Source: Stutzerimonas stutzeri
Lineage (GTDB): Bacteria > Pseudomonadota > Gammaproteobacteria > Pseudomonadales > Pseudomonadaceae
DNA length: 64,000 nt
Direction: 5' to 3'
Assembly: GCF_000219605.1 (NCBI RefSeq)
Contig: NC_015740.1
Coordinates: 2,232,001-2,296,000 of the forward strand
Made by a program: the position numbers and the translations under genes
The notes under the pieces: generated by a model
Database searches by the model: none
The model's input: the letters and a program-made list of their open reading frames with translations, nothing else
What the model was told of the DNA's origin: nothing
Shown: positions 1-6,409 of the stretch, one piece after another
How positions within the stretch are numbered: position 1 is the first letter of the stretch
Layout: every line of letters starts with the position of its first letter

Positions 1-290
1 GGCATCAGCACGCGCTGGATGGCCTCGACGGTATCGACGAACACCGCGTTGGACAGCGAGGGGATGATCACCGCCACCAGGTTGGATCGCGAACTGGCCA
101 GGCTGCGCGCCGCGGGGTGCGGCACATAGCCGAGCGCCTTGACCGCCTGCTCGACCCGCTCACGCAATGCATCGGAAACCAGCTCCGGTTGTGACAACGC
201 GCGGGATGCCGACATCAGCGAGCAGCCGGCGTTGCGTGCGACATCGGACAGGGTTACCCGCTCGGCGGAGCGGCGACGGCGTGTGGTCAT
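1..290 (-). CDS. gntR: LacI-family transcriptional regulator, GntR-like (N-terminal part, cut by window edge)
   Basis: The first 96 codons of a LacI-type repressor are present and the rest lies beyond base 1. The ATG is read at 290-288. Residues about 12-58 form the LacI helix-turn-helix plus hinge helix: TLSDVARNAGCSLMSASRAL is followed by an alanine-rich PHPAARSLASSRS hinge and then NLVAVIIPSLSN, where the sugar-binding domain begins. It is the last gene of a minus-strand operon with gluconokinase-DctQ, DctM and DctP, so a repressor answering to gluconate or 6-phosphogluconate is the natural inference. It probably binds the two TAGCGCTA-core palindromes in this operon. I recall that P. aeruginosa GntR is reported to use a TAGCGCT-containing operator. 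The ligand cannot be read from this fragment. Confidence 0.85.
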   Translation of the reverse strand, partial: MTTRRRRSAERVTLSDVARNAGCSLMSASRALSQPELVSDALRERVEQAVKALGYVPHPAARSLASSRSNLVAVIIPSLSNAVFVDTVEAIQRVLM

Positions 291-348: not shown

Positions 349-1365
349 CTAGCGCGCGGCCTTTTCGACTTCGGCCTGGACCTGGTCGAACAGCTCCTGG
401 CCGACGGCGTCGATCACCGTCTGGATCGCCGGCTGCGCCTGTTCGCGCATGCGCTGGACCTCCTCCGGGCTGACCTCGTTGATCTGCATGCCGTGCTCCT
501 TCAGCGCCGCCAGGGCCTGGCTCGCCTCGCGACGGGTGTCCTCGCGCTCGGCATCACGCGCCTTCTGGGCCGCCGCCATGATGATGCCCTGCTCGGTTTC
601 CGAGAGCCCGTCCCACCAGCGCTTGGACGCCGTGACGATCCAGGGGCTGTAGACGTGATTGGTCACGCTGAGGAACTTCTGCACTTCATAGAACTTCGCG
701 GACAGGATGGTGTTGTAGGGGTTTTCCTGGCCGTCCACCGCCTTGGTTTCCAGCGCAGTGAACAGCTCGGAGAACGGCAGCGGCACCGCATTGGCGCCCA
801 TGCGCTTGAAGGTGTCGATGAACACCGGATTGGGCATCACGCGCAGTTTGATGCCATTGAAGTCCTCGAACTTCTCGATCGGCCGCGCGCTGTTGGTCAC
901 GTTGCGAAAGCCATTCTCCCAGTAGACCAACCCGACCAGCCCCTTTTCCTCGAGCTTGTCCATAATCTGCCGACCCACCGGCCCGTCCAGTACCTGATCG
1001 GCCTGCCCAGGATCGGTGAAGAGAAACGGCGTGTCCCACACCGCCATTTCCTTGGTGATGCCAACCAGCGTCGCGGTCGAGCCAACCATCATTTCCTGTG
1101 CGCCGCCGATCAGCGCGTTCTGCATCTGGTCGTCCGAGCCGAGGCTGGCCGAACCAAAGGTACGCACTTTCAGCTTGCCGTCCGAAGCCTTGGCCACCTC
1201 TTCGGCGAGCAGTTTCACTGCCCTGCCCTGATTGCTGTCTTCGTTGAGGCCGTAGCCGAAGCGGATCATGCGCGGGCGGATGTCGTCGGCGGCGTGGACC
1301 TGGCCGAGGCCGAGTGTGCTGCCGAGCAATGCGGCGGTCAGGGTGCTGATGATGAGTCGTTTCAT
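349..1365 (-). CDS. dctP: TRAP transporter substrate-binding protein, DctP family
   Basis: This 338-residue periplasmic binding protein has a clear signal peptide (MKRLIISTLTAALLGSTLGL..., likely cut after VHA at about residue 25). DctP-family landmarks follow: FGYGLNEDSNQGRAVKLLAEEV near the mature N-terminus, and GIKLRVMPNPVF carrying the conserved arginine that usually pairs with a substrate carboxylate. The segment LFTALETKAVDGQENP is also typical. It delivers a carboxylate-bearing substrate to the DctQM membrane unit. Its gene lies 61 bp after dctM and 58 bp before gntR, on the same strand. The gluconokinase in the operon makes gluconate or a related sugar acid the likely substrate; this is inference, because DctP specificity is not legible from sequence. 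Confidence 0.93.
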   Translation of the reverse strand: MKRLIISTLTAALLGSTLGLGQVHAADDIRPRMIRFGYGLNEDSNQGRAVKLLAEEVAKASDGKLKVRTFGSASLGSDDQMQNALIGGAQEMMVGSTATLVGITKEMAVWDTPFLFTDPGQADQVLDGPVGRQIMDKLEEKGLVGLVYWENGFRNVTNSARPIEKFEDFNGIKLRVMPNPVFIDTFKRMGANAVPLPFSELFTALETKAVDGQENPYNTILSAKFYEVQKFLSVTNHVYSPWIVTASKRWWDGLSETEQGIIMAAAQKARDAEREDTRREASQALAALKEHGMQINEVSPEEVQRMREQAQPAIQTVIDAVGQELFDQVQAEVEKAAR

Positions 1366-1426: not shown

Positions 1427-2704
1427 TTACCGCAGCCAGGCCAGGGGTACGGTGATGATCGAGGGCACGGCTATGAGCAGCCCGACGATCACCAGGTAGA
1501 CCAGGAAGAACGGCATCACGCCGCGCACCAGGGTTTCCATGCGCAGCCGGCCGATGCCGCCGACCACGTTGAGCACGGTGCCTACCGGCGGGGTGATCAG
1601 CCCGATGGAACCGATCAGCACGAACATCACGCCGAAATACACCGGATCGATGCCGGCCTTGATCGCGATCGGCGCCAGCACCGGACCGAGGATCAGAATG
1701 GTCGGGGTCAGGTCCAGCACCATGCCGACAGCGATCATCAGCAGCATGATGGCGACCATCAGCAGCTTGGGATCCTGCGCCAGCGGACCGAGCATCGCCG
1801 CGATCTCGTCGGGCAGCTGGGCCAGGGTGATCATGTACGCCGATACCGTCGCCGCGGCGCAGAGAAACATCACCGACGCCGTGGTGCGGCTGGCACGCGT
1901 GAGCACCTCGACCAGCCCGGCCCAGGTCAGTTCGCGATACAGCAGGGTCGAGACCGCCAGCGCGTAGACCGCGGCGACCACGGCGGCTTCGGTCGGGGTG
2001 AACAGCCCGCCGCGCAGGCCGCCGACGATGATCACCGGCAGCATCAGCGCCGCCGCCCCATCGACCAGCACGCGGCGGCGCACGGCACCGCTGGCCTTTT
2101 CCTGCTTCGGTTCGTCGATCCGCCGGGCGATCAGCGTCCAGGCGACGATCAGGCCCATGCCCATGATCAGCCCCGGCACCATGCCGGCGAGAAACAGCTG
2201 GCTGATCGACGTGCCGGTCACCACGCCGTAGATCACGAACGGCATCGACGGCGGAATGATCGGGGCGATGATCCCGCCCGCCGCCACCAGGCCCGACGAC
2301 GAACTCAGCGGGTAGCCGCGCTCGCGCATCATCGGCAGCAGCAGCGTCGCCAGCGCGGCGGTATCGGCCAATGCCGAGCCGGACATGCTGGCCAACAGCA
2401 CCGAAGCGGCAATCGCGACGTAACCCAAGCCGCCACGCTTGTGGCCGAAATAGGCCTGCGCCATGGCGATGATGCGCCGTGAGATGCCACCCGCATTCAT
2501 CAGCTCGCCGGCCAGGATGAAGAACGGCACCGCCAGCAGCGGGAAGCTGTCAGCGCCAGCCTGCAGGTTCTGCGCGAGCAGTTGCACGTCCCAGAAATCC
2601 AGGTACCACATCAGCACCGAGCCGGTGAGCAGCAGTGCGAAGGCGATGGGCATGCCAAGCGTCATGAAGCCCAGCAACGAAGAGAGGAAGACGACGACGG
2701 TCAT
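1427..2704 (-). CDS. dctM: TRAP transporter large permease subunit, DctM family
   Basis: The 425-residue DctM is a polytopic membrane protein with about 11-12 hydrophobic segments. It has the usual MPIAFALLLTGSVL start, a GGISRRIIAMAQAYFGHKRGGLG cytoplasmic segment and a C-terminal LITPPVGTVLNVVGGIG motif typical of the family. The ATG at 2704 was chosen over the longer open frame reaching 2962, because the family begins close to this MTVVVFLSSLLGF stretch and the extension is hydrophilic junk overlapping the upstream gene. It forms the Na+ or H+-driven channel with the DctQ half of the upstream fusion protein. The gap to that gene is 50 bp, so the genes are almost certainly co-transcribed. 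Confidence 0.93.
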   Translation of the reverse strand: MTVVVFLSSLLGFMTLGMPIAFALLLTGSVLMWYLDFWDVQLLAQNLQAGADSFPLLAVPFFILAGELMNAGGISRRIIAMAQAYFGHKRGGLGYVAIAASVLLASMSGSALADTAALATLLLPMMRERGYPLSSSSGLVAAGGIIAPIIPPSMPFVIYGVVTGTSISQLFLAGMVPGLIMGMGLIVAWTLIARRIDEPKQEKASGAVRRRVLVDGAAALMLPVIIVGGLRGGLFTPTEAAVVAAVYALAVSTLLYRELTWAGLVEVLTRASRTTASVMFLCAAATVSAYMITLAQLPDEIAAMLGPLAQDPKLLMVAIMLLMIAVGMVLDLTPTILILGPVLAPIAIKAGIDPVYFGVMFVLIGSIGLITPPVGTVLNVVGGIGRLRMETLVRGVMPFFLVYLVIVGLLIAVPSIITVPLAWLR

Positions 2705-2754: not shown

Positions 2755-3885
2755 TCAGTCCGCCGTGATGTTCGCGGTGGCTGCTGCCGCTGGCTGGTCG
2801 CGCCGCCAGACATTCACCAGCTGCACCAGCGCCAGTACAGCCATGGCAAACATGCTCGCCGCTACCGGCAGCATTGCCAGGCCCAGCGGGTAACCGACCA
2901 CCGGGCTGTTGATGGTCCAGCCGAACTGCATCTGGTTCCATCCGCCCCAGGCCGCCAGACAACTCGCGCCTGCCACTAGCAGCCAGCTCAGCGAGTCGAC
3001 CAGCCGGCGCATCAGATGAGGGAAACGGTCACGCAGCATGGCGAAGCTCATCAGCTCGCCGCGGCGCATGCTCGAAGCGACGCCGACGAAAACCAGCCAG
3101 ACGAATGCCAGCCGTGACAGTTCCTCGGCACCCGTCCAGCCGGTGCCGAACGCGTAACGCAGCACCACGCTGGAAAACACCACGATGACCATAAAGGCCA
3201 TCAGCGCGGCCATCAGCCAGTCGGTCAGGCGGTCGAAACGCTGCGCCAACGCGCCGCTGTAGATCGGCGCATTGGTCAGCGGCGGCGCCGTGGTAGCGCT
3301 ATCAAACGGACGCGCGGAAAGATCGACGCGGGACTCGATCAGTTCATCCACATCGGCGCCGCGCATCCATTCGACGATTTGCAGCAACACCACGTCGCGG
3401 GGCTGACTGGCATCGACGGTCAACACGCCTGGCTCACCCTCGGGCGATTCGAGGGTGGCGAACTGGCTGTCGACCAGGGAGATCGGCATGAAGTGCCCCG
3501 GTCGCGCACCGACGCGCTGCACCGCGGTGTCGTAATCGATGGCCAGATGGGCGAAGCGCAATCCCGGGACAGCACTGCGCAAGAGCTCACGATAGCTGCG
3601 CTTGAGCGCCGAGCAGGCCAGGACGAAGCCACTGCCGCTATCGAGCGTGCGCTGCATCTCGCCGATCAGGGCGTGCAGCCATTGCACGCGGTCGGTATCG
3701 GACAACGGTGTACCGGCACGCATACGCGCGACGTTTTCCGCAGGGTGAAAGTTATCCGCCTCGATGTGCGGCAGGCCGAGCGCGTCGGCGACGGCGTGGC
3801 TGGTATCGGTCTTGCCCGAACCGCTGACGCCCATGACAACCAGGACCGGCAACGCGGTAGCCCGGGAAGGCTGCTTTGAAGGCAT
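2755..3885 (-). CDS. Gluconokinase-DctQ fusion: GntK kinase joined to TRAP small permease subunit
   Basis: One uninterrupted 376-codon frame encodes two proteins that are normally separate. Residues about 13-175 are a GntK-type gluconokinase, which phosphorylates gluconate to 6-phosphogluconate: P-loop GVSGSGKT (G19-T26), EADNFHP, and the family's ALKRSYR and GHFMPISLVDSQFATLE segments. After a linker of about 35 residues, residues about 210-376 are a DctQ small TRAP permease with four hydrophobic helices (near 219-238, 250-267, 288-306 and 325-350) and the typical GAEELSRLAFVWLVFVGVA stretch. Stop-free continuity through the linker argues for a real fusion. The ATG at 3885 was chosen because an upstream TTG at 3936 lies inside an operator-like palindrome. 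The product would tether the kinase to the transporter at the inner membrane. A separate internal start for DctQ cannot be excluded. Confidence 0.88.
   Translation of the reverse strand: MPSKQPSRATALPVLVVMGVSGSGKTDTSHAVADALGLPHIEADNFHPAENVARMRAGTPLSDTDRVQWLHALIGEMQRTLDSGSGFVLACSALKRSYRELLRSAVPGLRFAHLAIDYDTAVQRVGARPGHFMPISLVDSQFATLESPEGEPGVLTVDASQPRDVVLLQIVEWMRGADVDELIESRVDLSARPFDSATTAPPLTNAPIYSGALAQRFDRLTDWLMAALMAFMVIVVFSSVVLRYAFGTGWTGAEELSRLAFVWLVFVGVASSMRRGELMSFAMLRDRFPHLMRRLVDSLSWLLVAGASCLAAWGGWNQMQFGWTINSPVVGYPLGLAMLPVAASMFAMAVLALVQLVNVWRRDQPAAAATANITAD
3291..3307. promoter_or_regulatory. GntR-type operator (site 2), inside the fused gene at the kinase/permease linker
   Basis: TGGTAGCGCTATCAAAC repeats the upstream operator with one mismatch. 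It falls in coding sequence for linker residues around 193-198 (PFDSAT), exactly between the GntK and DctQ domains. Centre-to-centre distance to site 1 is 631 bp. It could be an auxiliary looping operator or the relic operator of a once separate dctQ promoter. Confidence 0.6.
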
Positions 3886-3921
3886 GAAGAAATCCGTCGT
3901 TGTTGTGCTTGTTTGGCCGGA

Positions 3922-3938
3922 TGTTAGCGCTATCAAAC
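3922..3938. promoter_or_regulatory. GntR-type operator (site 1), upstream of the gluconokinase-dctQ gene
   Basis: TGTTAGCGCTATCAAAC lies 37 bp upstream of the fused gene's ATG. Its first 14 bases form a near-perfect palindrome with core TAGCGCTA, the usual shape for a LacI-family repressor dimer. A second copy at 3291-3307 matches it at 16 of 17 positions in the same orientation. The assignment to the operon's own GntR-like protein is inferred. Confidence 0.7.
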
Positions 3939-4005
3939 ATACAGATAAAACTACCGCTCGTCGCGCCTGACCAGACCCAGTGCCGACAGCGCAACGGCTG
4001 GACGA

Positions 4006-4033
4006 TCGACAAGCGCGGCAAGGCGACTACAAT
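4006..4033 (+). promoter_or_regulatory. Putative sigma70 promoter of ppiC
   Basis: TCGACA (4006-4011), a 16-bp spacer and TACAAT (4028-4033) lie about 30 bp before the ppiC ATG at 4063. Each hexamer matches consensus at five of six positions. This is sequence reading only. Confidence 0.5.
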
Positions 4034-4062
4034 CGCGCCCCTCAATGCACGAGGACAGCGAC

Positions 4063-4341
4063 ATGCCCAAAGCTATGGCCCGCCACATTCTGGTCAAGAC
4101 CGAAGCCGAAGCCGCGCAGCTGAAGAAGCGCCTGGCTAACGGCGAGGCGTTCGACGTGCTGGCCCGCAAGTATTCGACCTGCCCGTCCGGCAAGAAAGGC
4201 GGCGACCTCGGCGAAGTGCGCCCTGGGCAGATGGTGCGCAGCATCGATCAGGTGATCTTCAAGAAGCCGCTGCGTGAGGTGCATGGCCCGGTAAAGAGCC
4301 AGTTCGGCTATCACCTGGTGCAGGTGTTCTACCGCGACTGA
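4063..4341 (+). CDS. ppiC: Parvulin-type peptidyl-prolyl cis-trans isomerase
   Basis: The 92-residue protein is a single-domain parvulin that isomerises peptidyl-prolyl bonds in the cytoplasm. It starts ARHILVKTEAEAAQLKKRL, continues with FDVLARKYSTCPSGKKGGDLGEVRPGQMV and ends GPVKSQFGYHLVQVFYRD. The two conserved histidine blocks (RHILV and GYHLVQV) and the SxCPSGxxGGDLG loop are all present. Its length matches E. coli PpiC (about 93). The ATG at 4063 was chosen because GAGGA lies 8 bp upstream and homologues start with MPKAMARHIL; an earlier ATG at 4045 lacks support. Its 3' end overlaps the convergent zapE gene by 13 bp. No signal peptide is present. Confidence 0.95.
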   Translation: MPKAMARHILVKTEAEAAQLKKRLANGEAFDVLARKYSTCPSGKKGGDLGEVRPGQMVRSIDQVIFKKPLREVHGPVKSQFGYHLVQVFYRD

Positions 4342-5500: not shown

Positions 5501-6409
5501 TCAGGCATGCTCGGCCTGTAGCAATCGCGCGGCCTGCTCGCCGAGTGCATCGAGCAGCATTGCCTGCGCCGGCAGCGGCTGCTCGTGCACCCGGGTAAGG
5601 GCATAGAGCGGCACGCTGATGGCGGGCTCTAGCAAACGCGTCTGCACCTCGCCGCCATCGGTCGCCAGCGCGGTGAATGGATCGACCAGGGCCACGCCCT
5701 GCCCCGCCGATACCAGCTGGCGCGCCAGCTGATAGGTCTGCACCCAGGTGACCACGCGCGGCGGTGGGTCGAGCTCTTCGAGATGCCCCCGCAGCAGGCT
5801 GCCAAGGGCATCGCGGGTATCCAGGCCGATCAGCGCCCGGCCCGCCAGCGCCTGCAACCGGACTGGCGTGTCCAGCTCCTCTTGCGCCCAGCACCCGGGC
5901 GGCGCAATCACCCGCATGCGTCCTTCGGTGAGCATGCAGCTGCACAGGCCGGGGTGTTCCACTGCCTGCAGCGTCAGGCCGAGGTCCGCCTCGCGTAGCA
6001 GCAAGGCCTCGACGATCTCCACAGTGTGCTGAGTGGCGAGCTGGCAGGCGGTGCGCGGAAAACGCTCACGCCAGCGCTGCAAGGCCATCGGCAGCAGCGC
6101 CTGGGCCAGTGCCGGGGTACAAATCAGACGCAGGGCTCGGGCGTCGCCTCGCCCGAGATTGTCGGCCAGGCGGCGCAGGTTCTGCAGGTCGATGGCGAGG
6201 CGCTCGGTCTGCTGCTGCAGCAGTCGCGCCTCGGCGGTGGGCTGCAGTTTGCCGCGCACCCGATCGAACAGGGCGAAGCCGAGCTGCTGCTCGGCATGCT
6301 TGAGAATCTTGCTCGCCGCCGGCTGGGAGATATGCAGCAGCTCGGCCGCGGCAGTGAGGCTGCCGGTTTGCAGAATCGCCTGGAACAGTTCGATATGACG
6401 CAGACGCAT
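5501..6409 (-). CDS. LysR-family transcriptional regulator
   Basis: The 302-residue LysR-type regulator begins MRLRHIELFQAILQTGSLTAAAELLHISQPAASKILKHAE, a canonical LysR winged HTH. A periplasmic-binding-like effector domain follows from about residue 90. The ATG at 6409 was preferred over the open frame to 6436, because family members begin at MRLRHIELF and the extension would run into a 17-bp inverted repeat. The gene is divergent from a D-amino-acid dehydrogenase-like gene that starts 117 bp away. Between them lies a perfect palindrome with the LysR T-N11-A signature. The simplest reading is that this protein controls that oxidase, and perhaps the TAXI gene after it, in response to an amino-acid ligand. 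Confidence 0.9.
   Translation of the reverse strand: MRLRHIELFQAILQTGSLTAAAELLHISQPAASKILKHAEQQLGFALFDRVRGKLQPTAEARLLQQQTERLAIDLQNLRRLADNLGRGDARALRLICTPALAQALLPMALQRWRERFPRTACQLATQHTVEIVEALLLREADLGLTLQAVEHPGLCSCMLTEGRMRVIAPPGCWAQEELDTPVRLQALAGRALIGLDTRDALGSLLRGHLEELDPPPRVVTWVQTYQLARQLVSAGQGVALVDPFTALATDGGEVQTRLLEPAISVPLYALTRVHEQPLPAQAMLLDALGEQAARLLQAEHA

Follow-up and report, generated by a model that had tools for sequence, protein, structure and literature searches.

What keeps an operator-like sequence in the codons that join two protein domains, and how did it get there? The question is raised by a gluconokinase–DctQ fusion gene of Stutzerimonas stutzeri, which lies in the 64,000-nucleotide stretch of DNA analysed here (the window). 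The initial annotation had pointed to two 17-mers in the same orientation, one before the gene and one within it, and a check of the sequence bore out their coordinates, their strand and their identity at 16 of 17 positions. We refer to them as O1 and O2 (Table 1). O1 lies 37-50 bp before the ATG at 3885, O2 encodes residues 194-199 of the fusion protein (FDSATT), and the palindromic cores of the two are spaced 631 bp apart. The fusion gene is followed on the same strand by dctM, dctP and the LacI-family gene gntR, which is the last gene of the operon and encodes 339 aa at full length (G000:C1:2231274-2232290). The fusion protein scores 172.8 bits against TIGR01313 (cut-off 113.75), and its DctQ half corresponds to the small permease of a TRAP transporter.

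Table 1 Predicted operators, promoter-like elements and genes of the operon, in window coordinates
Feature	Position	Strand	Description
O1, predicted GntR operator	3922..3935 (core)	-	TGATAGCGCTAACA (gene strand); precedes the fused gene
O2, predicted intragenic GntR operator	3291..3304 (core)	-	TGATAGCGCTACCA; in linker codons
-10-like hexamer	3921..3926	-	TAACAT; overlaps O1 and shares its right half; consensus resemblance only
Weak -35-like hexamer	3944..3949	-	TTTATC; 17 bp before the -10-like hexamer; 3/6 consensus matches
Gluconokinase (GntK/IdnK type)-DctQ fusion gene	2755..3885	-	376 aa; Pfam DctQ and AAA_33
Linker codons	3265..3351	-	Residues 179-207, low-confidence (pLDDT < 50), containing O2
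dctM	1427..2704	-	TRAP large permease; Pfam DctM
dctP	349..1365	-	TRAP solute-binding protein; Pfam DctP
gntR, 5' part	1..290	-	LacI-family repressor; Pfam LacI

Both sites are rare. Allowing up to three mismatches, the 17-mer matches twice in the window against 0.15 matches expected, and none of 100 shuffled sequences held two or more. In the 4.55 Mb genome, the pattern TGNTAGCGCTANCA with at most one mismatch finds O1 and O2 only, and the reversed control pattern finds 12 matches. At two mismatches, one strand of the genome already holds 102 matches (control 203), and thus the site is specific only near its full length.

The regulator had been taken for a GntR-family protein. It is instead a LacI-family protein that bears the name GntR, matching the Pseudomonas GntR equivalog model NF052440 at 489.4 bits, above the cut-off of 400. 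For P. aeruginosa, the excerpt of PMC5902321 used here, recounting Daddaoua 2017, gives the GntR operator as AC-N-AAG-N-TAGCGCT, and excerpts of PMC5902321 and PMC12195362 place the core TAGCGCT/AGCGCT in two Pseudomonas species. The gntP operator of P. plecoglossicida has been footprinted, according to an excerpted report, and release of GntR by gluconate or 6-phosphogluconate is reported for relatives (PMC5902321, in excerpt). Both O1 and O2 have this core; their outer letters are partly unlike the published ones, which are mostly AGRYAGCGCTRTCT in the Pseudomonas operators and TGATAGCGCTAMCA here. In the Pseudomonas gntR/gnuK/gntP systems, which share a GntR of the same equivalog model, one operator precedes gnuK and another lies between it and gntP. 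In contrast, the operon studied here has a TRAP transporter and joins its small subunit to the kinase in one protein, so that the second operator is coding. In three genomes that carry the kinase alone, a search at E 1e-40 found no GntR relative (3/3), and the site pair is missing too, a joint absence that links the sites to the regulator. Resemblance to published operators, together with a matching regulator in the operon, suggests, short of proof, that O1 and O2 are two operators of GntR, and we infer that GntR binds them in this organism.

To describe the distribution of the arrangement, we surveyed 398 genomes of the family and found the fusion in 73, namely 46 of 56 genomes in the genus and 27 of 342 outside it; the named relatives that carry it are Stutzerimonas and Pseudomonas. 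The loci of all 73 genomes and of the named relatives yielded 73 distinct fused coding sequences, the equal number being chance. Exact duplicate coding sequences were excluded, as were L097 (a stretch cut short, O2 present), L105 (a split gene, O2 present), L110-L112 (no fusion) and L037, which repeats the window. O1 is found in all 73 distinct fused genes and O2 in 68, of which 66 match strictly and two (L007, L051) have one letter changed; O2 is absent from L074, L078, L084, L091 and L096. Absence of O2 from all close relatives with the fusion would, according to the initial annotation, have refuted its proposal, and these counts demonstrate the opposite. Wherever O2 is present its reading frame is identical, and it is retained even where the protein is only 61% identical to the fusion of the window. 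Across the 73 coding sequences, the pattern TAGCGCTA is found 67 times, always at nt 560-590 and in a single frame. A strict pattern search of the 56 genus genomes, with match places taken from the genome pattern listing and completed from the fused-locus pattern search, showed that 41 of the 46 fusion carriers have at least two matches, with both located at the operon. The remaining five comprise three letter variants (G172, G186, G235) and two genomes without O2 (G143, G229). Among the ten genus genomes without the fusion, seven have no match, two have one and G198 has two. Those in G198 (G198:C66:97461-97675) are similar palindromes, separated by about 200 bp and next to another LacI-type gene, whose product is 37% identical to GntR and probably serves another regulon. 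All these counts are inflated by relatedness.

In 62 of the 73 fused rows, gntR follows the fusion gene downstream on its strand; of the other 11, nine have at most 1.5 kb of flank and two are without gntR in 5 kb. These two are L084 and L091 (G113 and G099), in which O1 is a perfect palindrome, O2 is absent and the next 5 kb downstream contain no gntR; both genomes encode GntR relatives, about 50% identical, at other places. The other three genes without O2 (L074, L078, L096) retain gntR. Five fused genes without O2, three of them with gntR, indicate that O2 is not essential and that its effect is modest or replaceable. In a tree built without the linker, which came from a quick search and has a weak root and some long branches, the five O2-less genes stand at three places within the fused clade, so that O2 looks early or ancestral and lost about three times.

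If O2 matters as DNA, its codons should be constrained beyond the amino acids they encode. The codon triplets of O2 rank 1-3 of 308 in synonymous codon identity (0.98, 0.97 and 0.97), against a column mean of 0.58 and 0.89 for the best triplet outside O2. The wobble base that opens O2 is T in 67 of 68 genes, although T makes up 15.2% of third bases and the amino acid of that codon varies among nine kinds (F, L, I, V, P, D, R, G, H). This result is the one least affected by relatedness, the letter being constant while the amino acid changes. The Ala column reads GCT in 67 of 68 Ala codons, compared with 12.7% of Ala codons in these genes, and the sole exception belongs to the O2-less L074. Ser is AGC in 67/67 (background 45.5%) and Asp is GAT in 69/71 (background 51.9%). 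Mapped on the tree, each O2 codon has 3-4 third-position changes, where the mean is 12.4. When 14-nt windows are ranked simply by how many changes they have undergone, O2 falls outside the 12 best. An RNA element at O2 was rejected, local folds being no better than shuffles in 4/4 sequences tested. Together, the codon patterns point clearly to selection of O2 as DNA rather than as protein sequence across 68 of 73 fused genes.

The surrounding linker is modelled with low confidence (the whole model reaches a pLDDT of only 69.6), and among relatives the part of it that follows O2 differs in length by about 30 residues. The codons at O2 read x-D-S-A-N/T, in which D, S and A are conserved and the rest of the linker is variable. 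In L023 (about 5551-5600), as in some species, a repeated Arg-Gly-Gly-Gln unit directly behind O2 lengthens the linker and leaves O2 untouched. In L105 (G241:C1:266638-274764) the fusion is split behind the linker into two pieces in different frames, with O1 and O2 intact; a DctQ protein, P0002 (174 aa, 14 sequences in 11 contigs), begins at about the same point, and the split may be present in several strains.

We then compared promoter elements at the two sites. The T that follows the 14-mer and completes TANCAT is present at O1 in 73/73 genes and at O2 in 1/68, and TTG at the -35 distance is found in 33/73 and 0/68, respectively; the -35-like position of O1 reads TTGTCG in several relatives. 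With its conserved hexamers O1 looks like the operator of a promoter; O2, which has none, looks like an operator that stands without one. A promoter scan of 3200-4100 found no sigma-70-like match at O1 or O2, only an unrelated one on the plus strand at 4006-4033, and being silent on both sites it supports neither as a promoter.

To trace the origin of O2, we turned to operons in which the kinase is unfused. Forty unfused gnuK loci of the family were hand-picked from the best-match list, a non-random sample in which all 40 were counted; transporter types were separated by length, with one protein per type checked against Pfam and NCBIfam. In 28 of the 40, gnuK is followed by a 450-aa gene (the one checked matches Pfam GntP_permease and TIGR00791), and all 28 have one operator before gnuK and a second 5-32 bp past the gnuK stop. 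Operons with a 457-458-aa GntP-type transporter have the second site in 1/10 (L126), and two other loci lack it (0/2). The nine remaining loci of the longer type (L114, L118, L119, L121, L125, L127, L132, L135, L154) have no operator behind gnuK, and the two transporter types, the shorter represented by L117, thus differ in control layout. In the 28 operons of the shorter type the second site lies +542 to +606 from the kinase start, a range that takes in the +560 to +590 of O2 in the fusions. An operator behind the kinase at the same position as O2 suggests that the fusion swallowed an intergenic operator. That the fusion captured this operator and that selection then kept it seems to us the most likely origin, although the comparison draws on operons with a non-homologous transporter, the second type of which has the site in only 1/10.

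An ancestor with separate gntK and dctQ genes was not found. A search with the DctQ half in a sample of 369 genomes of the class at E 1e-25 matched its own genome only. A protein search with the same half gave 53 matches, of which those above 44% identity resemble shorter forms of the fusion; separate DctQ relatives are at most 44% identical. Among four short DctQ matches that were read, P0001, P0003 and P0009 retain the linker and part of the kinase, and P0002, which begins right behind the linker, may be a split form like L105. Three genomes of the same genus (G168, G217 and G237; loci L110, L111 and L112) carry only the kinase, flanked by the same zapE-like and LysR-type genes. A free kinase tree, from which the L133 kinase was omitted, nests them in the fused clade on a long branch, yet a constraint grouping them with unfused kinases was not rejected (p-AU 0.82), and they may represent either a loss or the pre-fusion state.

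Other explanations of O2 were weighed against these observations. One holds that D-S-A-N/T serves the protein, for example through a modification, and that the DNA match is incidental. The retention of D, S and A in an otherwise variable linker would fit, but codon choice is fixed where it is free, the opening T persists across nine amino acids and the linker is modelled at low confidence, and we regard this explanation as extremely unlikely. It is also quite improbable that O2 governs an internal start within the fused gene, for dctQ-dctM-dctP-gntR or for dctM-dctP-gntR. Its position does match that of the operator ahead of gntP in unfused operons, of which the P. plecoglossicida example was footprinted according to the excerpted report. 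However, the hexamers conserved at O1 are missing at O2, no sigma-70-like match is found there (the scan was silent at O1 as well), and the intergenic sites of unfused operons have no conserved promoter in 27 distinct rows; the excerpt of PMC12195362 has its authors speculating likewise that their gntK-gntP gap holds no promoter. The initial annotation had proposed that O2 is the relic of a once separate dctQ promoter. The origin part of this proposal agrees with the operators at the matching place in 28/28 operons of one unfused type (1/10 of another), but the relic promoter does not agree with the absent -10/-35 elements or with the clear signs of selection. Even as a leftover operator of a former dctQ or transporter gene with no present task, O2 would be expected to have decayed; it sits where such an operator would and has been lost about three times, but its letters are held against codon preference and amino-acid change in 68/73 genes, and we consider this reading very unlikely.

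How, then, would O2 act? Of the mechanisms considered, we rank an elongation roadblock first and a lac-type loop second. We lean towards a joint reading, slightly beyond an even chance, in which O1 and O2 are two GntR operators, O2 was captured by the fusion, and it provides a second repression step by roadblock. GntR at O1, which overlaps the -10 region, would block initiation. O2, with no promoter of its own, would descend from an operator just behind the gluconokinase gene and before the transporter gene; when the kinase and the TRAP small subunit fused, this intergenic operator would have become the linker codons, its DNA kept by selection. A GntR dimer on O2 would stall RNA polymerase that escaped O1, most likely its present task, and the transporter genes and gntR would thereby stay off without gluconate. 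However, a roadblock within the fused gene would cut off the kinase message as well, the benefit of which is not evident, and 5/73 fused genes lack O2. The alternative is that GntR bridges O1 and O2 as in the lac operon and raises its own occupancy of O1, which we think possible but rather unlikely. For a loop speak the two strong sites, to which a genome-wide search allowing one mismatch adds no third, the conservation of O1 and O2 mostly together, and a distance of about 640 bp, which is workable for looping. The initial annotation had cited a spacing of about 60 helical turns, but phasing had to be dropped as evidence for a loop: across relatives the spacing runs over 629-664 bp in 17 distinct values that cover all helical phases (R 0.27, Rayleigh p about 0.28), a weak test at more than 600 bp. 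Helical phase matters little at about 640 bp. The C-terminal helix of LacI makes the tetramer; in the alignment of GntR with LacI, residues 3-312 of the 360 in LacI pair with GntR up to residue 321 of 339, and GntR ends with its core domain where that helix would begin, so that a LacI-type tetramer is unlikely by this comparison of sequences. The GntR of a relative was modelled by its authors as monomer and dimer, a model rather than a measurement, in the excerpt of their report. The earlier idea of a lac-O2-like auxiliary operator is thus well supported as to the operator, which is conserved at the DNA level in 68/73, but not as to the loop, given the unphased spacing and the missing tetramer tail.

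Two known systems resemble the roadblock and loop arrangements. The E. coli lacO2 lies inside lacZ and is likewise a second operator in the first gene of an operon, read by a repressor of the same family; LacI is a tetramer, whereas GntR has no counterpart of the tetramer helix and the O1-O2 spacing lacks a constant phase. He and Zalkin reportedly described in 1992 an E. coli PurR site inside purB that acts as a roadblock. As with GntR, the tetramer tail of LacI is missing from PurR. The purB roadblock is cited in excerpts of PMC4132739 and PMC4052901, and the latter names the lacZ coding-region operator. The purB site is alike in being a coding-region site of a LacI-family repressor without a promoter, which at O2 refers to conserved hexamers only. 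In contrast to purB, O2 lies in a linker between fused domains and is paired with a promoter operator, and the roadblock here is proposed only.

In the open-access literature, judged by title and the start of the abstract among the matches listed, we found no paper matching a gluconokinase-TRAP fusion or a gluconate TRAP transporter of P. stutzeri. Within the same scope, none of the matches on gntT looping or on LacI-family intragenic or auxiliary operators describes this arrangement, and those on binding sites in fusion linkers or intragenic sites with synonymous constraint include no such case.

Fewer than 1% of predicted LacI-family sites fall in coding regions, according to the excerpt of PMC4052901. 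O2, as predicted here, is such a site, conserved across genera and tied to a domain fusion. The relatives form a natural series of unfused genes with an intergenic operator, fused genes with O2, fused genes that have lost O2, and a kinase alone that lacks both the repressor and the site pair. This series makes testable the survival of regulatory DNA through a gene fusion and the role of a second operator without a promoter. It is also a caution that residues of a linker can be conserved for reasons other than the protein. Chances seem to us evenly balanced that the fusion swallowed an operator that has dictated linker amino acids throughout its history, and that a promoterless GntR roadblock between kinase and transporter, whether the kinase is fused or not, is an old rule of gluconate operons. 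If this is true, the linker sequence would exist for the repressor to read as DNA.
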